From Clavaria fumosa (taxonomy: Eukaryota > Basidiomycota > Agaricomycetes > Agaricales > Clavariaceae), in the NCBI GenBank assembly GCA_951802425.1, contig OX637802.1:2108001-2172000 (forward strand): a stretch of 64,000 nt of DNA. Direction: 5' to 3'. The stretch's first letter is position 1. Each line of letters begins with the position of its first letter. This document shows positions 31,626-59,900 of the stretch, in pieces. The translations under genes and the position numbers were made by a program. A model generated the notes under the pieces. That model made no database searches and was not told where the DNA came from. It saw only the letters and a program-made list of their open reading frames with translations.

Positions 31626-33142
31626 AGAGGTTCAGATGACTTGATATGCATGGGGCCTTTAAAATAGGCTTGGCCCAGGTCAGTAGGGCTTGGCTCAGAA
31701 TAATATTCTTCAACCTGCATTCCAGGTCTAATATCACTACCTTACATCTGGTAGCACCCATATTATGATTTTCCAGCCCTAATGCACTGCTCACTCATCT
31801 AAATTACCAGATACTGTAGTAATACCAATGTACCTGAGCAAGAAGAGCTTAGCCCAGACAATTATTCTGCATCCAACATCCTATATCAAATGTCCCCTGA
31901 TCTAATATGACACCCTACAATAAATTGTTAGTTATTGAATGTTAGGTGTGACACATTGTCACACTTGAAATCTGGGTTAACTGTAACTGAAGCAGCTATG
32001 GAAGTGTGGTAAATATGTTGTCCATGTTCTAATATAGCTGTATCAGAGGTCTCTGTATAGCTATTGGACTTGGCACATTAATACCACCGTATTAATATAC
32101 CTGACTTGGCACATTGATACCACCAGATATTAATGTACCTGAGCAAGAAGAGCTTAGCCCAGACAATTATTCTGCATCCAACACCCTATATCAAATGTCC
32201 CCTTATCTAATATGACACCCGGCCAAAGTCTATATTCTTGACTGTATATTCAAGCTCAATACTCTTGTATATGCTAGCTCATTATTCCTGTGTAAGTAGC
32301 ACTGTTGCTCTTATTTTATCAGCAGCAGAAAATGATTTTTGAGGTAGTCAATTCAGCTGCATTTCACACTCTATACTACTATCCTAAATGTGAAACAACT
32401 TGCTGCAATGGTATTACCTATAATCTTATCTTCACCACATCAATAAACCACTCACCCATCTGGACCACCTGATATGAATATGCCTTTAAAAAGGGCTCAG
32501 CTGAGATGGTCATTCTCAGGTCTACATTTTATATCAGATATTCTCTCCTTGCAGATCAAAATCATAAATCCTGAGCAACCCTATTATTATTATTCCAACC
32601 CCAATGAGCCACCCATCTGGATTTCTTCATTTGAATATGCCCTTTCCAAGGGGTTATCCCAGGTGGTTTTACTCACTCAGCATAGCCTTCTTTCTCAGTC
32701 ACAGCAGACACCTCTGGAAGTAGATCATTTTATATTAATACCTCTTCATAAAGGGCTTGGCTCAGTATTCTCCAAGCCTAATCCCTTGTTAAATATGCTC
32801 TACCTGCATAGCATGAACAAATTTCATGATTACAATGATTGTATTATTTTATTTCTAGCCCCAATGAACCACCCACTCATCTGGACCACTTGATATTATG
32901 ATGCGTTTACAAGGGTTTAGCCTGGATGGTTATTCTTCAGTCTACGTTACTTCAAATATCCCCTCTCTACAAGTATTGAACAATCTGCATATGGAAACAA
33001 TCACCATTATTATTTCAGTCATAATGAGTTGCCTCTCACCAAATGGTTATTGTTCAGCAAGCATACTGCATCACTATCCTCTTCTTGTATATCTTAAATC
33101 ACCTTTGCACATGCTAACACCCTTGTCTTCATTTTTACAGCT
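31626..33142. repeat. AT-rich degenerate repeats; ~90-bp direct repeat
   Basis: A block with GAGCAAGAAGAGCTTAGCCC occurs at about 31,826-31,914 and again at 32,131-32,219. A longer degenerate unit containing CACCCATCTGGACCACCTGAT recurs near 32,450, 32,600 and 32,870. No gene seen. This may be more of the left inverted arm, since the right arm is cut by the end of the window. Confidence 0.6.
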
Positions 33143-35928
33143 TTGATCAACTCCCATTAATTTACACCCCCTCATATTAATACATTGTTATCAGGAGCTT
33201 GATTCAAATGGTTACTCTTAATATATTTGTCAATTTGAGAATAATATGAAGGAACCAACATACTAGGCATGCCTTGAGATGTCTCTTGTATTTCCTGTGA
33301 TATTTGTTTGACAAGGGGTAGATTTTAAACAATAGAAACCTGTTAAAGTGAGGCTCAATATCATAGATTTGAAGAATGTTCTAATTCAAAGACATTGGAT
33401 TGCCATTTCTCAGGATACTGATTTATTTGATTGTCCTTTCTGAAATGCATGGATATGAAAACTTAATCTACAATGTGCATTATTCACACTTGTAGGGCTA
33501 TGAAATCAATAAATATACATTTGTCAGAAAAAAAACTACCGCCTTTTTGCCCTTGGTCTGAGCACCCGCTGCTTTGCCTCCATGGATGCTTTCCTCTTAC
33601 TTCGTGTTCAGTATGGAAGATGAGGCTCCCCTTCATCTCTGGCTCTTCTCTTCTTCAGTGAGCCAAACTGCTGATCAGCTTGACAATCATTCTCTACCTC
33701 GCTCTCCACTTGCAGTTGATCCCTCTGCCTCTCCTGCACCTCCCCCAGTATATTTAGATTGGCCATCTCATATGATCCACCAACCTTAGAATTGCCATAG
33801 TTGATATTGTCATCAGTGTCCTCTTCGTAATTGGCACTGTCTTCATCTGTAGTGTCCTTGTCATCACCAGTGTGGTCTTCATCATCAGTGTCTTCTCCAT
33901 CACTGTTATTGACTGGTTTCTCTGAACTGGATCTGACTCACATTAGCCAATGATATTTTCAAGTGAGAAAAGATCTTACACTTCAGAGACAAGCTGGATA
34001 TGCTTAGCTGTTTGAGACAGCCTTGACACTTCATCGTCAGTATCTTGTGTATGACTCTTGTCTGCATCCCTTAATGCCTTCCCTCTCCTATGGGTGGGTA
34101 GAACATTCTTGAATTCAAGGACCCTTTGACCAAGAGTTTGTCGATGGTGGAGGAAGGCACAAAGCCTTCTCACATCTGCTGATTGCATTTTTGAGGGCTC
34201 ACGGAGGTGTACTCCTTTAGGAATGTATTGCGCTTGTATAAAAGCGCTTGGGTTGTCAGATATTTGCAGCCATGGAACAGCAGCCTTTTTGTTGTTACTT
34301 TTCTTGCCTACAAAATACAACATTTTTTCAATTTATAAAATAATCAATTGCAAAAAGCTTACGGTATGCAATCGTAAAACATGATCTCAAGATCTCCTTG
34401 AGCTGAGCCAAGGGAAGTGCCAGCTCTAGAGGTAGTAATGGCCAACCATCCTTGTCTTTTGCAAGATCCCATGGGACACTTGTATCTGTTCTCTTAGAGA
34501 GAAGCACAGCATCCCAATCATCATTTTGCAGCCTTGTTGCATCCTCTGGACTCGGATTAGAGTTCTTCTTACACACAATTGTGCAGAGCACACTTACTGT
34601 TCCACATATCCCCTAAATACTCATCCCATTTTTGCCAAACAACATCTCCCGTCTGTTGAAACACATCCTTGAACCCAGCAGTGGAGGGTCCAGGCGTCTG
34701 GACTCTAAGAAAAATTCAAGAACATACACATTAGTCAGGAATGTGGAACATCTCATTGGAAAACACTCACTTTGCCTTCTTGATCTGCCCTTTATCATCT
34801 TGCCAACCAGCCAACATAAATATCTCTACTCCCATCTGCTCTTTGGCCAACCGGGAAAACTCCAATGCATTACGCATAAACTTTCGTGAAGCCAATCTTA
34901 CAGTAAAGGAAGCAGCCGACATAAGTTGCAAATGAATAATGTGCAGAGATTCACTCACTCTCTTTGAATATTAGATGGTACAGGCTCTGTATTCCACTTC
35001 TCAGCCAAGCCTTCAAATTCAAGCCGCTCTTGTGTTGACAACTCCTGGCAAACTTGAGTCCTGGCTCGACGATAGGCAGATAAGAAGTCTATTGTGCCTC
35101 TCTCAGCCTTTGAGAGCTCTTCTGCGCGGGCATTGATTTTTTCCTTCTCATGCTGCTCAACAACACCTTGGAAGGTCCACCTTTTGCGTTTCCAAATGGT
35201 GAGGCCTGGCTTTTGACCTGGCTCAGAATCAGAACCGTTATCCATTCCTGCCCCTACCCTGCGATGGTTGTGCAGCCAGTTGCGAATTTTCTGCAAAAGG
35301 AGAGCATCAAAACATAAGTGAATCAGATGTGTGAAGTTCTGCTTTACCTGGTTTAAGCCATCGGGAGGATGTTCCTGTGCAGCTTCGGCCAGGTCTCGGA
35401 TTTGTCTCTTGATCTCCTTGACAATACTAGCACGTTCCTTGGTGTCCGCCATCCCATATACTTCCAGGCTGCCTTTGAGAAGCTCGACATAAGCAGGGGT
35501 TGTCCACTTGGTCATTTACTCGAGGATTGTGACAAGGCAATACGCAAGATGTAGGTAGAAGTAAGAGAATGATGATTCTAACACGTGATGTCGATTGCTT
35601 CAACGACGAAAGAGATATTTCGAAGTCACGTGCCATTGGCGTTACATGTCACACCCCTTTCAAAAAATCAAAGTGCATCTGTATTACCAACCAAGTCAAA
35701 TGTAGATGAAGGGTGGTTCCAGACTAAGAATGGAGACTTCTGTATCGTTGCTTATTGAGTTTTCAACGGGGATGTGCTATCGGATAATTTTTGAGATCTT
35801 TACATTCTCTAGAATCTTACTCCTAAGCCATTCTGTGAAGCGATAAACAAAACGACAAAAGGCCACAGATTTGAATTTCTTACCAGACCAGTCAGCATTA
35901 CATGTCACTATGTGACCAGCGGCGAAGT
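33143..35928 (-). repeat. Left inverted arm (2.8 kb)
   Basis: Reverse complement of 61,163-64,000. From 33,143 to 35,646 position x matches 97,143 minus x without any indel. Beyond that the offset changes by 52 because the right arm has an extra palindrome. Identity is very high, with scattered CG/TG differences. The match ends at GGCGAAGT, the centre of a palindrome. Confidence 0.95.
33608..35515 (-). CDS. Seven-exon gene of unknown function in the left inverted arm (522 aa)
   Basis: Mirror copy of the gene at 61,628-63,535, with the same exon structure. The protein starts MTKWTTPAYVELLKGSLEVY. Its middle (RKRWTFQGVVEQHEKEKI, STQERLEFEGLAEKWNTE, MGVEIFMLAGWQDDKGQI) follows a pattern I know from abundant hypothetical proteins of Agaricomycetes. 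A very acidic tail (GEDTDDEDHTGDDKDTTDE) precedes a basic end (KKRRAR). Compared with the right copy it keeps CpG at several sites, encoding Arg where the right copy has Cys or Gln (e.g. INARAEE, SAYRRART). No catalytic motif is seen. A nuclear, chromatin- or nucleic-acid-related role is a guess from the charged tail. Confidence 0.7.
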
Positions 35929-36450
35929 CCTCTGCTGCTCAGGCTGACTCGTTAGCGCTACCAAGAAGGCCACAGCAGGGCCTTCTCAAACGGGATTTGA
36001 ATTGGGAAGCGAGCAGAGAAACAAGCTACGGAAGTACAACTAGAGATATGAACAGAAAACAACAAAGCAGAAAAGGCGAACAACCCAAGGGAGAGGTGGG
36101 TGGGCCGATGAAAGAAACAAAAGAGAAGGCGAGGAGAGGGGCTGGGGAAGAGTAGCTAATGAAAACTACACGGTGTAAAAAAGAGATCAAAGTCAGAGAC
36201 AAACTGAGAGAAGTGCATGCGTACTCAGATACGTGTATGTGGCAAGCTAACAAAGTGAGGAGAAGCCACGAAGTGTATCTGGAGCGAAGGAAGGTCAGCT
36301 CGAAGAGCTGAGGTGCGGAAGGCTGAGCCGTTCACCTGTGCTGGTCTTTGAGTGACACGAGAGGAGCAGAAGAGCAGCACAGACGAAGGAGCTGAGGGTC
36401 GATAGCACTTATCAGACTCGAGTGAGACATCCGCTACGACAATAGCATAA
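35929..36450 (-). repeat. Repeat R, copy 1
   Basis: From GCTGCTCAGGCTGACT to AGCACTTATCAGACT it is repeated at 43,650-44,165 (copy 2), and its first ~100 bp at 44,330-44,427 (copy 3). All contain the hairpin AGAAGGCC/GGGCCTTCT. It is likely the end of a retroelement whose coding remains lie next to copy 1. Confidence 0.7.
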
Positions 36451-45985: not shown

Positions 45986-46396
45986 ACCCTTGGTCGGACA
46001 ATTTTGGAGCAGTCCAGTACCTCTGTGCTCTCTGAGCAGGTGGGTTTACTTGGTTGCACCGTAGGTTTAAGAGTTTTAATGAGTTCTGCCCAGTTTCTAT
46101 TTCGCCGTTTTTGTTTTGATTGATTGTTATAAGAGGCTAGCGAGGGACCGAACTGGCCACTCGGTCTCTCGCACCGGCCCTACATTTGGTTCCTTTTTAC
46201 AAGATTTCTTAGCGTACAGTTGAGTAGAGTTGAGTAGAGCAGAGCCGCACCGATACCACTTTGAGACCTTAGAGCTAAAGGGGAAACCTTGTCAGTTCGC
46301 TATAAGTCACGTGACCACAGAGTTGACTTAGCCCGCCGGCGTGTCTTGTTCCCTCTGCCGAGCCCAGCGTGGAAGACACCGTTTCACTTCTCCAAG

Positions 46397-47888
46397 ATGC
46401 CAGCTAAAAATCTTGTGCATGCCCTCGTTTGCCGTATTAGAAAATTCTCTGCTCACAACCTTCGACACGCAGCGTTGTTATATGTGCCTTGCTACTCTCC
46501 GCCCAATGACTACCTGCGACTACTGCCCATGTGCTCTATGCCCAAATTGCATCGATATTGGCGCAGCGCCTCCTGCTCAAAACGTAGTGTTTTTATGTCT
46601 CCATTGCCATGAGCAAGCGTTCAAATCTGACCCCTACACGGTGAGCGATCTGCTCTAGTGTTTCTTCTCCCTCAAATCTGTGAAAAATGCAAGGGTTTTT
46701 ATATTCGAAGCAATACGAGCCTCCTAGAGATCGCTGGCAAACTAAATGCTGCTGCCTTACGCCCCTTGGAAGCATCCCCTTTGAAGGTCACTGGAAATTT
46801 CCAGATGACTGCACATTCACAGGTAATCTATGAAGGTACAACAATCCTACACCTCTTGTCGGAAGGAATCAATGCAAGTGGGTCTCCTGCAAGGATCATG
46901 GCCGAGCATTTATCTGCGGCCCTGGGTCCCGAAGACTTTCTTTTCGAAGAGATAAGGTTTAACCTCTCAACTCCTGCCCTGGTTTGCTCCCATGGGCATC
47001 GGCTAAGAGAGATCGTCAAGGGAGCCACCGAATAGTGAGTTTGTTGATTTACTTTGATCTCTTTGTGAAGGAGCAACTTTGCAGCAAGCACCATAAACGT
47101 TGTATCATATTCATCACCAACCACTTTCAAAACGACAATGGTGTATTGATGGCCTCTCATTCGAGCAAAACAGTCAAGGAAGTGAGCAACTGCTTTTCTT
47201 GTTTTGTTTTGCCCAATATCCAACCTCTGTATAGTTGATGCAATCGCTCCTTCCTACCTCTGTATTCCCCTTAAAAATGGATGTCACGTTGTGGATGCTC
47301 TCTTCAAATTGCCTTGTCGATGAACCTCGAAGTTATGAGGATCTTGTGGACAGTTTTAACCGGTATATTTAACTTGTGCCTGTAGTTTTAACTCTCATTC
47401 TCTATCCTAGCCTCTATCTTTCTCACCTCATTGCCTTCACTGCCAAGGAATTACAACCTTCCCTTGTATCGTTGCTTGTCCTTGCCTATGCCCAACATGT
47501 CCTCATCGAAGGCTTCCCTTTTGCCGATTTCGAGAGACGATTTCTTCCCAGCATTTCTTCAATTCATCGGCACACTGGCATTGTCCACATATTCCGGGAC
47601 CAAAGCAAACTACAAAGTCTCCGGTACATTTGGACGCACCGGAACATCTACCCATGGGGTCATCCTCTGCCTGTGCAATGCGATAAGTGTGGGCGTATCC
47701 GCCCCTGGATATCGGTAAACGGCCGCGATTCATCTTGCTTGTTTGCTTGTCGTGGCTGCCCAAAAAAGCTGAAGTTTCCACCTCCAGAGTCTGTGAAATG
47801 GGTAGGCAGTGAAGTTGCAGGCGGTCGGTGGATGGTAATAGAGCAGGAAAAATATCTGAGGGATGGTCTGATTTATACCAAAGAATAA
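46397..47888 (+). CDS. Gene A: PHD-like zinc finger plus caspase/CHAT-like and Cys-cluster domains (413 aa, 6 exons)
   Basis: Exons: 46,397-46,426; 46,473-46,640; 46,694-47,034; 47,085-47,181; 47,235-47,362; 47,411-47,888, all in phase. It is paralogous to gene B at 51.3-52.9 kb, and introns fall at matching points, such as just before the first zinc-finger Cys. The N-terminus is only ten residues long. Then comes a PHD-like finger (CYMCLATLRPMTTCDYC, CPNCIDI, FLCLHCH). A middle region has FITNHFQNDNG and MLSSNCLVDE, at the spots where the paralogue has FLRTHSNPDNG and LLVCGG. The C-terminal part has RPW-type wording (YPWGHPLPVQCDKCG) with a C-x2-C...C-x2-C cluster. The His/Cys pair in beta-strand-like contexts suggests a caspase/CHAT-like fold; this is inference. 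I know this family as recurrent hypothetical proteins of mushrooms. No stop codons interrupt it. Confidence 0.72.
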
Positions 47889-48575: not shown

Positions 48576-50137
48576 ATGAATTTGGTGCTTTGGGCATGTA
48601 TGTGTCACGACAGTGATTTGTTTTCAGGATTTACAGACCTGGTCCTGGGTCGTTGTAATCTTAATTTTGCTAGTACGGCGGTTATTGTGGCACAAATTCG
48701 TCCTTGTTTTTCTACCTCTGTGAATGAAACAACGAAAGAGACAGAAGACACAACACGAAAAATCTGTAGCTTGTTCAACTCCTTTTGGACCTCTTTCCCT
48801 GAAGGATTCAATGTGGGCCCGCCTCCGAGGTGTTTTGCAAACGTTTTGCTGAGATCCCGCCGAAAACTCCAAGAAAAAACAGTAAGTTCACCTTTCATTC
48901 TAGATCGAGTTTTAATGCTTTCCTGCTAGACTTAAGATTTGGTCAGAACTTGAAACTCTGACAGCTGCTTCAGATTCAAGGGACACTAGCTCTCTTAGCG
49001 ACGCTGACTTCCAAAGGGTCGCGCTTACTGTAGCGTATGCATTGATGAATCCCCGTAAGGATCATTTACACTTGCAAATTGATCAATTGCCTTATGTCCA
49101 CACACAGTTCAGACAGACTGGGACGTTGAGCGGTTTGTAGATAAAATCAAGGCTGTTAAGATGGCTGGAAGCTATGACTCAAGAATACAGGAAGAGGTGG
49201 TTCGTTTGAAGGAAAAATTCGGACTATTTGTCAACCCCAGGCGTATTGAAGAGCCTGCGACTATTGTTGACAAATTTGGTCGAATTCTAATATGGCATCT
49301 TCCTGGTATTCTTTCCAAGTCTCATTTGGTGATTGCATTTTGGCTTTAGTTTCTTAAGTCCTCGAAGAAGACTGACGGTAGAAAATCCACAGGCCAAATA
49401 CAATGAAGCTTCTGCAGCAATCAAGGACTACTTGGTAACCCAGGCATCTAGCGGTGAAAAGTCTTGGAGGTTGACTGGATTTCACCCCCCTGCTAACACT
49501 GTATTTGGGGCTGGTTCTCTGAACTTTTCTCCAGGTTGGTTTATGAGGCTCAGAGATGTAAGCAAACACAGTTGCACAAATGGACGGAGTCCTCACAACC
49601 CCACAGCAACCGCACGAGAAGCTCAGGATGTCGGCCATCCTACAAAGCGCACAGGGCGGCTCATTCTTGACTGCAATCTCAAATTCTGAACTTATCTGCA
49701 ACAGCGTTGCAGCGCTGATAACCCCAGAGCTATATGACTTAGGACTGTCTGCAATCCAGAAGGTGAAGGAGGGTGTTGAGATGGCAAACAACTACAAAAA
49801 CGTTGAGTTGTAGCCCTCTGTTTACACGGCAATGCAGGTCATTGTGAATCGAGTGACGCCTCCTCATCGGGATGAAGGTGGCTGCCTGACGCATTACGAT
49901 CTCCTTGTCAGCGCAGGTACACATACAGGCGCGACATTCGATATCCCAGAGCTTGGAATTACTCTTGCTTATTCTCCTGGCACCATAGTCTCGCTCTGCG
50001 GGAGGATCTTCTTCCACCAAGTGCTTCGATGGGAGGGAGAGAGAATATGTGTCGCACATTTCATTAAAGACAATGTCCACGAAAGGTTGCAGCTACCTCG
50101 GCCTACATGGCCTAAACAGTCAGACTATTTTGCGTAA
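48576..50137 (+). pseudogene. TET/JBP-family dioxygenase, 5 exons, one in-frame TAG (441 aa)
   Basis: Exons: 48,576-48,881; 48,937-49,054; 49,108-49,328; 49,393-49,557; 49,622-50,137, all in phase. The catalytic domain reads FGRILIWHLPGIL and LNFSPGWFMR. It then shows VNRVTPPHRDEGG (HxD iron ligands), YDLLVSAGTHTGATFDIP, YSPGTIVSLCGRIFFHQV (distal His) and WEGERICVAHF (Arg for 2-oxoglutarate). TET/JBP enzymes oxidise 5-methylcytosine in DNA. In basidiomycetes they are expanded and linked to KDZ transposons, as here. A TAG at 49,811, 36 bp before the HxD codons, replaces an expected Trp (TGG). This one is not a CpG change. Unless a sequencing error, the copy is a near-intact pseudogene. The true start may lie elsewhere, as the first exon has no known domain. 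Confidence 0.83.
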
Positions 50138-51282: not shown

Positions 51283-52900
51283 TCATGTGTGTTGTTTGCC
51301 CCACCAGACATCCGCCTTCCATCCAGATGGCTTCTTCCTGTCACCAAACTGACAGTCCGAGGGAATAACAGAAACCGCACAACAATTTTTGCCGCTGCAA
51401 GAAATTTTGATGCGGTCTTGATCGTACGAAACTCTTGCAGATGAGAGAAGACCGCAGTAGCAGCATTGGTGGCCAATTTGAATTCCTTCGGGCCTCAATT
51501 GAGAATGGAACCAGGTCCATTTCTGACCAATAGATGATGAGAGATGCACAACAGAGGTGTGGGCACCTAGGCCTTCCTCTTCTGTCAAAAGCTTTGGAAG
51601 GATATGGTGAATAGAGAAATGTTCGACAAAGATTTTCATGGAAAGCTTCATCAACAAAGATGATGTCTGGATTGGGAAAAGTGTTGTGCTGCCGAAACCG
51701 ATAATGTCGTGAAAAATTCCCCTGGATATGGTGAGACAGATACCTTGACATATACAGGAAACACATACTCTTGGGCAAAATCCTGTAACACCTTCCGGGA
51801 GTTCATATGAGCGTAGACGCCGCCGCATACAAGTAAGTAAAGCAGCGAATGCGTTGACTTTGCAAGTGCCCTGAGTTCATCGCCAAAAATGACAGATAGG
51901 AACTAAAACGCGAGTCAGTGTTCATCTGAGTATTCAAGAAAGGAAGCCGACATCATTGATTGTTAAACCAAATCCCTGCTGGATGTGAATGTCGCCATTG
52001 TCGGGATTACTGTGTGTGCGAAGGAATACAAGAAGGCGGGTACAGCCCGCACTGATGTACAATTGAGATGGCTTAATGATACTGTTAGGAATAGAAAGAG
52101 TACCTTCGTATAGAGATCGCGATTTCGTCCATGAGACAGCGGTGACGTTCCACGGCAGTGATATTGCCAGGGTCGATGGTAAAAGGAACATGAATGTAAC
52201 AGAGTTCACGATCGCCTTGACCGGACGATTTGAAGTAGGCATCCAAGTAGTGATGGACAATCGGAGCAGGATCCCCCTTTTCGCCAAGCGAAGCAAGATG
52301 GAGATTGATAATGAAAACAGATGAGTCGTCAAAATGTGGAAAATTTCCGCGAACAGTTGAGTTCTTCAGCTTGGCAATGCCATTGCATGGATTGAAATCC
52401 TCCCCATTGAGCTTGAGCCCCTACAAAAAGCCGAGGAATGATAGGGATGTCACGACGTGAGGGGATGTTACGCACAGTGTATGGAGCGGCTGGCCGACAC
52501 TCAACGCCTGCTTTCCTAGCTTTTGATGAATGCCAATCTCTTCCCAAGTGGCAGCTAGGACAGATAAATTGGTATTCAGGCTTCAAAAACTCCACGTCGG
52601 AGATGGGTAGAGTGACGCAAGCACAAGTTGAACGTGGGCACTGATCACATTCTTTGAGATCACCCCCTTCACCACATACACAGCACCACTGGTAACATAA
52701 TTAGTCAAGGCTATAATGTGAGATAATTGAAGAAACCTAACGTTATCATGGGCTGCTTCTTGATGGGACACAGGTTTGGTCGACGTGCTCTTCGCCAACG
52801 GGACCTTTGGACCAGCGATGCGAAATGTCCTCCCTTTGAGAACAATGCGAACCGAGGGTGATCCTGTGGACGTTTTCGCGGTTTGTTTTGTTCGGGCCAT
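51283..52900 (-). CDS. Gene B: histone H3 tail mimic, PHD finger, caspase/CHAT-like and Cys-cluster domains (453 aa, 6 exons)
   Basis: Exons: 52,900-52,742; 52,688-52,425; 52,369-52,104; 52,051-51,952; 51,902-51,769; 51,721-51,283, in frame throughout with no internal stop. Residues 2-13 are ARTKQTAKTSTG, against ARTKQTARKSTG in histone H3: the first seven residues, including K4, are identical, while K9 is replaced. After a ~40-residue basic linker comes a PHD finger (residues ~54-100): WCCVCGEGGDLKECDQCPR, then C-A-C and FICPSCH. This is the GEGGDL..CD.CPR type seen in readers of the unmodified H3 tail. The rest parallels gene A: LLVFLRTHSNPDNGDIHI, YLLVCGGVY (possible caspase/CHAT-like His and Cys) and a C-terminal cluster HQCCYCG...CSGKNCC. 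The ATG chosen is the one that exposes the tail. The tail may be bound by the protein's own finger or by other H3 readers; this is inference. Confidence 0.8.
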
Positions 52901-53795: not shown

Positions 53796-54039
53796 TGTAC
53801 GGTGCGTTTTTGTTGGCCCCTTTCCTCGTGTGCATTTTTTTGTAGATGGTGTGTTCATTGGTTGGGTCATTTTTCGAGGAGGGTCCCTGCTCACTGTGTG
53901 CTAACCGTGCCGCAATTGATGGATTTCACCATGTGAGTAATCCGCCAAAGCCTCCCTGCTTGTTGTGCGCTGCAATCCCTTGTCCTCCGACACGTAGTGA
54001 TGTAGTGTGGTGGGGCCAGGCGGCAATGCCTTGCCTTGT

Positions 54040-56140
54040 ACCGCATTTACAAGCCCTATCCATGTCGATGTGGACAAGGTTTGGTGAGGCGGCGATGCCT
54101 CACCCTCATACTCTCGTTTGCAGGCCTCGTCCACAGTGATGTGGATGCGGTGTGGTTAGGCGGCGATGCCTTGCCTTGTACTTTTTATCCAAGCCTATCC
54201 ATGTCAATGTGGACAAGGTTTGGTGAGGCGGCAATGCCTCACCCTCGTTTGCAGGCCTCGTCCACAGTGATGTGGATGTGGTGCGGTTAGGCGGCGATGC
54301 CTTGCCTTGTACTGTATATCCAAGCCTATCCATGTCGATGTGGACAAGGTTTGGTGAGGCGGCGATGCCTCACCCTCGTTTGCAGGCCTCGTCCACAGTG
54401 ATGTGGATGTGGTGCGGTTAGGCGGCGATGCCTTGCCTTGTACTGTATATCCAAGCCCTATCCACGTCGATGTGGATGAGGTTCAGTGAGGTGGTGATGC
54501 CTTGCTCTCATATCGTATATCCAAGCCCTATCCATGTCGATGTGGACAAGGTTTGGTGAGGCGGTGATGCCTCACCCTCATACTCTCGTTTGCAGGCCTC
54601 ATCCACGATGATGTGGATGTGGTGTGGTTAGGCAGCGATGCCTTGCCTTGTACTGTATATCCAAGCCTATCCATGTCGATGTGGACAAGGTTTGGTGAGG
54701 TGGCGATGCCTCACCCTCATACTTGTTTGCAGGCCTCGTCCATGGTGATGTGGATGTGGTGCGGTTAGGCGGCGATGCCTTGCCTTGTACTGTATATCCA
54801 AGCCTATCCATGTCAATGTGGACAAGGTTTGGTGAGGCGGCGATGCCTCACCCTCATACTCTCGTTTGCAGGCCTCGTCCACGGTGATGTGGATGTGGTG
54901 CGGTTAGGCGGCGATGCCTTGCCTTGTACTGTATATCCAAGCCCTATCCACGTCGATGTGGATGAGGTTCAGTGAGGCGGTGATGCCTTGCTCTCGTATC
55001 ATATATCCAAGCCCTATCCATGTCGATGTGGACAAGGTTTGGTGAGGCGGCGATGCCTCACCCTCATACTCTCGTTTGCAGGCCTCGTCCACGGTGATGT
55101 GGATGTGGTGTGGTTAGGCGGCGATGCCTTGCCTTGTACTGTATATCCAAGCCCTATCCACGTCGATGTGGATGAGGTTCAGTGAGGCGGTGATGCCTTG
55201 CTCTCGTATCATATATCCAAGCCCTATCCATGTCGATGTGGACAAGGTTTGGTGAGGCGGCGATGCCTCACCCTCATACTCTCGTTTGCAGGCCTCGTCC
55301 ACGGTGATGTGGATGTGGTGCGGTTAGGCGGCGATGCCTTGCCTTGTACTGTATATCCAAGCCCTATCCACGTCGATGTGGATGAGGTTCAGTGAGGCGG
55401 TGATGCCTTGCTCTCGTATCATATATCCAAGCCCTATCCATGTCGATGTGGACAAGGTTTGGTGAGGCGGCGATGCCTCACCCTCATACTCTCGTTTGCA
55501 GGCCTCGTCCACGGTGATGTGGATGTGGTGTGGTTAGGCGGCGATGCCTTGCCTTGTACTGTATATCCAAGCCTATCCATGTTGATGTGGACAAGGCTTG
55601 GTGAGGTGGCGATGCCTCACCATCATACTCTCATTTGCAGGCCTCATCCACGGTAATGTGGATGCGGTGTGGCCAGGCGGCGATGCCTTGCCTTGTACTT
55701 TTTATCCAAGCCTATCCACGTTGATGTGGACAAGGTTTGGTGAGGCAGCAATGCCTCACCCTCATACTCGTTTGCAGGCCTCGTCCACGGTGATGTGGAT
55801 GTGGTGCGGTTAGGCGGCGATGCCTTGCCTTGTACTGTATATCCAAGCCCTATCCACGTCGATGTGGATGAGGTTCAGTGAGGCGGTGATGCCTTGCTCT
55901 CGTATCGTATATCCAAGCCCTATCCATGTCAATGTGGACAAGGTTTGGTGAGGCGGCGATGCCTCACCATCATACTCTCATTTGCAGGCTTCGTCCATGG
56001 TAATGTGGATGCGGTGTGGCCAGGCGGTGATGCCTTGCCCTTGTACCATATTTACAAGCCCTATCCATGTTGATGTGGACAAGGTTCGGTGAGGCGGTGC
56101 TGCCTCACCATCATACTCGCATTTGCAGGCCCCATCCGCA
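54040..56140. repeat. Satellite with 210-bp higher-order unit
   Basis: Built from blocks containing TTGGTGAGGCGGCGATGCCT and TTAGGCGGCGATGCCTTGCC with GATGTGGA(C/T) words. From about 54,770 to 55,560 two variants alternate in a 210-bp unit repeated almost perfectly; the edges are degenerate. Repeated 62-codon frames inside are artefacts. Confidence 0.95.
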
Positions 56141-56925: not shown

Positions 56926-59900
56926 ATGGCTGGACTGCCTGGTTCAAAACAAAAAGAAAATGCTCAGGAGGTTGAGTTTGTTTCAGTTTATAACAAGCGT
57001 CTCCGAAAGTCATTTATACGAGCTCACGATGTTCGTAAATCCACCTCCTCTCGATCCCACACCGCCTCCCCGAACAAACTCTTGTCCGAAGAATTTGAGA
57101 CCTCTGCCATTGGCTTCTCTTCCTCCAATATTGCACCAGCTCCAGTTCTTCGCTCTGAGGCATCTGTTGATCCCGGCTCTGTCCCTGTTATTCGTGTAGA
57201 GAGGTCAAGGAAGCGAAAACAAGGAAAAGTACGGGTTGATGCTTCCTCATAATGTGTATCCACTGACATAATTTTCAGGCCCAGAATGTGTTTCTGGAGG
57301 AATGGTTGTCGCTACGATCAATCTACGCTGAGGAAATCTTGGGATTGGAAGCTCCATCCCTGTCAACCACTTGCCAAGGCTGCCACAAGACAGAATTCAA
57401 GTTTCAATGTCGCGATTGCTTTTATCGGCCTCTGACTTGTAAAGCATGTTGTGCTAAAGGACACGCCAATACCCCATTCCATTCTGTTGAATTATGGAAT
57501 GGAATGTGTTTCTTACCATCGGATCTCGCACAAACAGGATTGGTGATTTGCTTAGGGCACAAGGGCTCCCCTTGTCCAGAGTACCAAGACAGAGGAGAGG
57601 ACGAGAATGAGGATCAGTTTTCAAGCAACGAAGGTGACGTCGATTCAGAGAGTTGCCATGCAAGACAACTGCAAATCATTCATTCCAATGGAGTGTGTGA
57701 AAGGACTATACAATACTGCAAATGTGCAAATGCTCCAGCATACCATATCCAACTACTTCAGCACCATCTCTTTCCTGCAAGCTCCAAGAGACCGCAAACT
57801 GCTTTCACTTTTCAAGTTCTTGATCATTTTCATATCGATGCAATGGAGTGCAAAACTTCAGCCGGAGCATTTTACACCAAATTGAGGCGGCTAACCTCTA
57901 ACGCTTTCCCAGACAATATCCCCGTTCATCCAATTCATACTTTTCTAGATTTTGCTTATTCATTGTCCTGGATCGTGATAATTAGGATCAGTACCGAGAG
58001 TTGATGAGAGTCTCCCGGCAATGGAGAGATCTGAAGAATAGAAAATGATTTGGATACGGACATGATGTGGATATAATGCCAGGCACAGGCGATCTAGCTC
58101 TTTTCTGCCCAGCGTGCCCTCAGCCGGGAATCAATCTTCCCGAAAATTGGAGAAGTCACCCAGACCAGTGAGTCTTACCTGAGTAATCTTGCCTCATTCC
58201 TGATGATGAAAGGTGGCTTTTCCGGAGATCTCTCGTCGTGGACGTAAATTTTTCTGCGGAGCACTTGAAGATGCCCAGAGCAGAAAAAGATGTGTGGCTG
58301 ACTAATGGAGAGGGATATATGGTAGAAAAATCGAATTATCAGCGGCACCTTTTAGAGGCAATGGATATTCGTGAGGTGAGTGCCTCAGCCAAAACAGTTA
58401 CGTTTGTATCTTGAATACTTCTTCTAGAAGTCAAAATGCTCAAACCACCGAGCAATTAGCCAGGCGCTCACTGCACGTTCTAGTCACCTTGAAGCCACTG
58501 GAATTGGGGCATGCGCCTGTTCTCGGCATGGATGCTTTGTTCCTCATTGTGTGGTTGATTTTCAGAAGGGCGAGCGGTAAGTGAGAGCAAATACATTCTT
58601 TAAATCTTTTCAACTTTTCTCTCGGCAGTCACGTCAACATCGACTATGCAATATGCCAAGCTATGAAATATCGCACAGAAGGAATGTCTGAAATATTAGT
58701 CATTTACGATGTCTGTTGCCAGTGGATTTGCAACTTCAGAGTACGAGTTGAAAGAAGCGCATACCTATACATGCCAGCTGCAACAAAGGTCATAGGAGCA
58801 GTGGGAAAATTCCACTTGGGGGCACACATTCCTTCTTGTTTTCCTCTTTTCTCGCTCAACTTTATTCCTGGTGCAGGACAACAAGATGGAGAGATTTTGG
58901 AGACACTGTGGTCCAGTTTGAACAAGATCTCCAGCAGCATACGAGCCATGAGCAAAGCGCATCGTCAGGAAGTGCTGGATGATTACATGTGGGACTCAAA
59001 CTGGAAGAAGTTAGTGAATATTGGTGAGCATTAAGAGCTTTTACAAGATATCTTTCAAACTGAATGTTCAATCAAGTGAAAGCCCTCTTCTCCAAATTCA
59101 AAGCAGCAGTGGAAGGCGTTCAGCAAACCAAAACGCCCTTTGAAGCTCTGAATCGCAATATTCCCAGCCATTTAAGAGAAGCATGGAAAGAAAGTGAGAA
59201 GGTTGCTTTGGAATGTCGTGGGGAACACCTGTCGATATATGATGTACAATTGGACAAAGGTGGGTTCAATTCTTGCCACAGACCCCTAGACAAAACTGAA
59301 GACATAAAAATAAAGCACCATCTCTTGCAGAAGTGCAGTTAATGCTGTCGACAAAGGAGAGGACTGCTGGATTACCTTCAGGCATAGTTTCCCTGCTGAT
59401 GGAAGGAATGGCTTTGGAAGAAATTCAGTGAGTAATGCTCTTGAGTGTTTTTATTAGCGCCCCTGTAACAAGTCCTTTCCCAGGCATTCCATTATGACAG
59501 AACTATCCAAGAGGCAAAAGCTTGCCATCCCTCAAAAACAAAGCGTTGTAGATCAGCTAAACAAACTTGAATCAAAAATCGAAGGCCACAATTTAAAAAT
59601 CTCTGCAGTTCTTGGAGATTTTGAATGGAACCAAGATGAGTCAGACCTGCAAGGGGATGAAGACTCCGAAGGGGGTATGGATGGGATTGATGAAGGTGAT
59701 CATTTTGAAGACCTTGTGGGAAATAGCATGCAAGCCAGGCTCTTGATGCCTTCGACTTTTGGTCGAGATTTCTGCTTGAAAAATGGATGGGGCCAGATTG
59801 TCGAACAAGAAATACAACTTCGGACAGCACAGGCAGGCGAGTCCCTTGATGCACTCAGGCTAGCTATCGGACACAAATCACTGCTCTACAAATTATGCAT

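Follow-up and report, generated by a model that had tools for sequence, protein, structure and literature searches.

A histone H3-like tail and an H3-reader-type PHD finger in one protein family of KDZ transposons in Clavaria fumosa

Why would a protein of a fungal transposon begin like histone H3 and also carry a finger of the type that reads H3? The question is raised by a gene on the minus strand of a 64,000-nucleotide stretch of the Clavaria fumosa genome (the whole of which is here called the window). The original prediction for this gene was of a start identical to H3 over residues 1-7, with K9 lost, and of a reader-type PHD finger in the same protein. That prediction was borne out, and the pairing proved wider than claimed, with 86 tails found in the genome. 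The features of the window on which the analysis depends are as follows.

51283-52900, minus strand: focal gene (H3-like tail, linker, C8 PHD finger, His/Cys region, C-terminal Cys cluster), from spliced alignment to a paralogue, with an open frame and GT-AG introns
52900-52742, 52688-52476 (or 52506), 52420 (or 52411)-52104, 52051-51952, 51902-51769 and 51721-51283, minus strand: exons of the focal gene, the ends of intron 2 being ambiguous
52847-52897, minus strand: codons A1 to R17 of the H3-like tail, found at all 77 finger loci that we examined, although a stop replaces R2 at two of them; pN/pS 0.39
52548-52688, minus strand: C8 PHD finger, in which every one of the eight ligands is a Cys, from alignment A2 and the PDB profile (ATRX ADD first)
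51769-52051, minus strand: exons 4 and 5, which encode a His (FLRTHSNPDNGD) and a Cys (LVCGG) that do not vary among the seven A2 members; putative function, from motif order only
49562-50137, plus strand: TET/JBP dioxygenase core, interrupted in the window copy by a single in-frame TAG (PF12851, 4.3e-14, the stop passed over)
53996-56137, no strand: tandem-repeat block between the focal and transposase genes, seen as multiple overlapping self-matches
57267-59034, plus strand: KDZ transposase pieces, a CxC2 cluster at 57267-58004 (PF18803, 3e-28) and a KDZ domain at 58585-59034 (PF18758, 4.2e-28)
46332-47888, plus strand: tail-less, partly decayed copy from a sister clade of the focal family, in the same block and colinear with the C8 copy

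The focal gene and the constraint on its tail

The focal protein starts at the ATG at 52900, six codons downstream of an in-frame TAA, and reads MARTKQTAKTSTGSPSVR... (M-ARTKQTAKTSTGSPSVR). Its tail is identical to H3 at residues 1-7 and the same at S10, T11, G12 and R17, with K9 replaced by T. Splice-aware alignment to a paralogue gave a model of six exons and five GT-AG introns with an open frame of 440 aa, in which intron 1 occupies 52741-52689 (GTTAGG...CCAG) and WCCVCGEGGDLKECDQCPR opens exon 2. A donor at 52475 and an acceptor before 52420 were judged the better ends for intron 2, and these yield a model of approximately 453 aa. The tail is followed by an unconserved linker, the PHD finger at the start of exon 2, the His/Cys region and the C-terminal Cys cluster.

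The window contains the pattern of the focal tail a single time, and none of 100 shuffles contains it. A slightly wider pattern occurred 34 times in the 48.8-Mb genome, compared to 0 times for the reversed pattern; 2 of the 34 were histone H3 genes, and the other 32, when matched by coordinates, were loci of the focal family. When the tail-linker-finger part of the focal protein was used as the query, 92 places were found in the genome. We examined 77 finger loci, of which the finger led us to 76 and the tail exon to one (L043). Tails were scored by BLOSUM62 against Met plus residues 1-17 of H3, taking the best segment upstream of the finger. At 75 of the 77 loci an H3-like start with a score of 37-69 lies 146-268 bp upstream of the finger, the highest score of the control (one shuffle per upstream stretch) being 22, and at the remaining two (L010 and L089) the tail is present with a stop at R2. 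A second query added 20 loci, of which 9 have a tail (7 of these without R2) and 11 belong to a tail-less clade. A chance match is rejected by the counts of the pattern and its reversal, by the shuffles and by the tails at the 77 finger loci. These data confirm that the pairing of an H3-like tail with an H3-reader-type finger in one protein is real, because it is kept in more than 80 copies.

The tails fall into subfamilies that include MARTKQTPKKSTGGRALR, MARNKQTAQRSTGGRALR, MARTKQSAKRSSGAPAMR, MARTRQSAKRSSGACATR, MARTKQNPKKTTGGHSIR and MPRTKQSASRSTGAPCVR. The 77 loci have 35 distinct tails. In these, Q5 (35) and R2 (33) are nearly invariant, followed by R17 (31), T11 and G12 (28 each), K4 and A1 (27 each), S10 (25), T3 (23), A7 (22), A15 (18), T6 (17), G13 (16) and K9 (11); R8, K14 and P16 are kept in none. 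K4 is replaced by R, T, M or H at 10/77 loci. The Met is followed by A, P or V, other than in the shifted rows of decayed copies.

We also compared subfamilies at synonymous and non-synonymous sites, with 16 copies and the 114 pairs that differ by at least 20% in tail DNA (63 pairs from 12 copies for the finger core). The pN/pS ratio was 0.39 for the tail (pN 0.295, pS 0.763) and 0.38 for the finger core (0.296, 0.788). Note that no gaps were allowed in the comparison of the linker, which was made place by place, so that its ratio of 0.85 (0.652, 0.767) stands for unaligned sequence. The tail is thus under the same constraint as the finger core, and the linker is not so constrained. The focal protein is a non-histone protein whose N-terminal likeness to H3 is under constraint, a feature expected of an H3 mimic.

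Repeated recent capture from H3 was rejected as the main account of the tails, since the tail codons differ and synonymous sites are near saturation (pS 0.76). In two of the three host H3 genes read (MARTKQTARKSTG-G), moreover, exon 1 stops short of R17, which also disfavours recent capture. The tails may stem from one old capture from H3. In two of the three host H3 genes (G000:C3 L037 and L038; C8 L028) exon 1 ends inside the codon of G13, near the point where strong conservation of the mimic ceases, a position compatible with ancient capture of the exon.

A separate observation concerns the decay of the tails. Nine of the 86 tails (L010, L089, L114, L116, L118, L119, L121, L122 and L123) have lost R2, in each case by a change of CGA to TGA or CAA, and no loss of R2 was seen in the subfamilies that write R2 as AGA or AGG. 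This pattern is a mark of methyl-CpG decay and suggests that the elements are methylated.

Relatives were also sought elsewhere. No match to the focal protein was found in the protein collection, where intron-bearing genes are probably stored as pieces, and no relative was found in viral and prokaryote contigs. A profile of the last exon matched 21 proteins in public environmental sequences, the best 12 of the 21 having 38-91% identity to the first row of the profile. A profile of the first exon matched five public environmental proteins at E up to 10, three of which resemble the family (MARTKQSAKRSSGAPATR, MARTTQTPKKTTGSRSVR and MARNKQMAKRSTGGCALH). The other two, P0025 and P0026 (E 0.0085 and 0.15), have H3-like starts (MARTKQTAKRSTGAPAPR, and MARTKQTARKSTGG, which is exact), and the sequence that follows is unlike H3 and unlike the linkers of the focal family.

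The PHD finger, the His/Cys region and the tail-less sister clade

The eight Cys of the finger are invariant in the seven-member alignment A2, save for a gap in the focal sequence beside one of them; between the fifth and sixth Cys the focal finger has one residue fewer than its relatives, a shortening common to its three sister copies. A profile of the seven members was compared by sequence to the PDB, and the best match was the ATRX ADD (5e-6), followed by PHF12, CHD4, BHC80 and AIRE (to 0.003). TRIM24 and others came lower, near 0.01, and chance matches such as a sodium channel subunit appeared at 0.02. The fingers of ATRX, PHF12, CHD4, BHC80 and AIRE are mostly readers of unmodified H3. 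The tail-bearing fingers have GG in 67/77 cases and CDxC in 69/77. By these likenesses the focal finger can be placed, as a prediction, in the class of unmodified-H3 readers. Two single fingers compared to Pfam PHD scored 10.4 and 17.5 bits, under the cut-off of 24. The fifth zinc ligand is Cys, as in ADD domains, but we do not call the finger an ADD domain because no GATA-like finger of the ADD kind was seen in the linker of the family sequences before the PHD.

The region beyond the finger had been described from the sequence as caspase/CHAT-like. In this region a His is followed by GD, and a Cys-Gly lies approximately 46 residues further on. The His and Cys (H175 and C221 of A2) are invariant in 7/7 members, which represent two deep clades, and stand in the order found in caspases. 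The description held to this extent, but no convincing match to Pfam or the PDB was found by sequence, and the tail-bearing copy L050 is without the Cys. At the level of motifs, the region may be regarded as caspase-like.

The tail-less sister clade occupies about 18 places genome-wide, including 46332-47888 of the window. No H3 tail reaching the score of the shuffle control was found in 11 upstream stretches of this clade or in that of the window copy. At 12/12 places of the larger branch (13 loci, two of one place) the finger sequence is GNKPLIICYNC, in which both GG and the Asp of CDxC are missing. Two members of this branch, L129 and L130, were read further, and these have Gln for the His and have lost the Cys. 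The window copy and L131 have neither GG nor the Cys but retain the Asp and His. Tail, reader site and His/Cys dyad thus appear to decay together, although this is weak evidence, because the joint loss amounts to a single event or two and because both CDxC and the His survive in the window copy. Fingers kept without the first 12 residues of the protein, which the original prediction had named as a refutation, were not seen in the main family; they occur only in this clade, where reader features of the finger itself are gone. At 13/18 places the tail-less genes lie within 10 kb of a tail-bearing gene, as if paired.

Linkage to KDZ transposons

The focal gene is flanked by KDZ transposase pieces on one side and by the TET/JBP core on the other, and the element carries a transposase with a CxC cluster, as KDZ transposons do. 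The window block is colinear with the C8 copy (over 43.3-64 kb of the window) and the C7 copy (over 47.1-63.2 kb), ranges that are set by the limits of the fetched sequence, and the long pieces are 92-99% identical. The tandem-repeat block at 53996-56137 is common to the C8 and C7 copies, and to the C1 copy as far as fetched. Elsewhere in the window, 32766-35939 is 96-97% identical to pieces of C7 and C8 that also match the window at 61-64 kb, and is a second partial copy of the transposase-side flank of the element.

The association extends to the family. CxC2 was found within 10 kb of 53/77 family loci and TET/JBP within 10 kb of 33/77, compared to means of 4.0 (highest 11) and 1.8 (highest 6), respectively, in 200 draws of random points, which were uniform and so ignore the clustering of transposons. 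For these counts we used 128/132 CxC2 matches (three second fragments and one match under the cut-off were left out) and 56/64 TET/JBP matches (eight under the cut-off were left out). One or the other lies within 10 kb at 63/77 loci and neither at 14/77. The spacing is nearly fixed within subfamilies. Most MPRTKQSA loci have CxC2 near +2.75 kb and no TET/JBP match within 15 kb, and most MARNKQ loci have TET/JBP at +3.5-3.9 kb and CxC2 near +6.7-7.0 kb. These data indicate that the focal gene is not a cargo gene on a transposon-rich stretch, as had been supposed, but a recurrent integral gene of KDZ transposons, with or without TET/JBP.

The same KDZ transposase and TET/JBP are found in the TET/JBP-carrying Kyakuja (KDZ) transposons of Agaricomycetes, as described in the accessible text of Kojima 2025 (PMC12730594). 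Kyakuja elements have CA..TG ends without TIRs and 7-bp target duplications, according to that text, and the word PHD is absent from its main text, unlike the focal element with its PHD gene. Our label Kyakuja-type rests on the TET/JBP partner and on the host group described for Kyakuja.

Possible roles of the tail

We propose, as a reading whose chances we consider evenly balanced, that KDZ (Kyakuja-type) transposons have a dedicated chromatin-effector gene in this family, and that its tail would serve as a ligand for readers of unmodified H3, above all the protein's own finger, in the service of anti-silencing. An initial Met is removed when the next residue is A, P or V. Because one of these follows, the Met should be removed here, and the free N-terminal A, P or V, followed by R-T-K-Q, would mimic the unmodified H3 tail. 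The mimic might then dock on its own finger, in cis or on a neighbouring molecule. Real H3 tails could compete it off, a displacement that would place the protein, with its enzyme-like His/Cys region, on chromatin, and the element might in this way counter silencing, beside TET/JBP where that is present. H3K9 writers use R8-K9. The residues kept in the tail are those used by readers of the H3 N-terminus and not R8-K9, which fits a reader ligand, and the joint loss of the tail and of features of the protein's own finger would point to docking within the family. An H3K9-writer decoy is unlikely, with R8 kept in 0/35 and K9 in 11/35 distinct tails. In broader terms, the H3-like protein is probably of use to the elements against chromatin silencing.

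We favour a self-ligand switch acting on chromatin over its main rival, a pure decoy, in which the tail binds and displaces host readers and modifiers of unmodified H3 (SRA/UHRF1-type proteins, LSD1, COMPASS, PHD complexes) and the protein's own finger is only a chromatin tether. We consider a pure decoy possible but unlikely. It has a precedent in mouse DPPA3, which inhibits binding of UHRF1 to chromatin by the accessible text of PMC11187062, and it agrees with the TET/JBP partner in many elements and with the host genome, which has one SRA match and one match to DNMT1-RFD, given as a CpG maintenance enzyme of Basidiomycota in the accessible text of PMC13297926. A pure decoy leaves unexplained, however, why the tail and the features of the protein's own reader are lost jointly in the sister clade. 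An elaboration of the favoured switch, which we regard as improbable, is that the mimic locks both reader and active site until real unmodified H3 displaces it, that the enzyme then clips or alters H3 at the element, and that in some elements a paired, inactive, tail-less paralogue regulates the process.

Little credence is given to the related idea of the His/Cys region as a peptidase for clipping the H3 tail, with the finger delivering H3 and the N-terminal mimic acting as a pseudo-substrate or pro-segment that keeps the enzyme off. The invariant His and Cys in caspase order across two deep clades, the absence of the Cys from the tail-less copies read, and the clipping of H3 by proteases, described in the accessible portion of the literature, speak for such a peptidase; the want of a convincing Pfam or PDB match and the tail-bearing L050 without the Cys speak against it. 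Very little is given to a basic peptide for nuclear targeting or DNA binding, with its H3 likeness inherited or convergent and no binding to readers. The tails are rich in K and R and K4 is changed in some copies, as such a peptide would allow, but the uncharged Q5 (35/35) and G12 (28/35) are kept and the basic R8 and K14 (0/35) are not, and the H3-like block begins exactly at the Met. Chance likeness in a decayed gene is negligible: several copies do contain stops, but the focal frame is open across five introns, the tail is constrained, and the wider pattern is absent from the genome when reversed.

The favoured self-ligand switch has partial parallels in known systems. The fingers of ATRX, CHD4, BHC80 and AIRE share sequence and GGxL..CDxC with the focal family, and that of ATRX also has Cys in the fifth ligand place, but as far as known they have no ligand-like tail. 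The SNAG domain of SNAI1 and GFI1 is an N-terminal P-R-S mimic of H3 that binds LSD1. It is comparable to the MPRTKQ subfamily, but is followed by C2H2 fingers and not by an H3 reader. DPPA3 and PAF15, ligands of the UHRF1 finger, are non-histone proteins with an A/V-R-T motif as in H3, and so resemble the focal tail; their V-R-T motif occupies the H3 site of the finger, according to the accessible text of PMC11187062. As far as known they differ from the focal protein in that the likeness is shorter, a reader of their own is absent, and they are products of host genes and not of transposon genes. Among the accessible papers we found none that contains both Kyakuja and PHD as whole words, and a literature search for H3 mimics and transposons gave nothing of such kind among the matches listed. 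To our knowledge, the union of a histone mimic, an H3 reader and a putative anti-silencing gene in one transposon protein is new, each part being of a known kind.

Transposons are thought to counter DNA methylation by means of TET/JBP enzymes. If the proposed mechanism is correct, the focal family would represent a second anti-silencing arm, based on protein mimicry of the histone tail and present also at elements without a nearby TET/JBP match. Since the family naturally fuses a ligand to a reader and has a tail-less clade for control, peptides would allow a direct test of what H3 mimicry does in anti-silencing, and the family may account for part of the H3-like starts in mushroom proteins.
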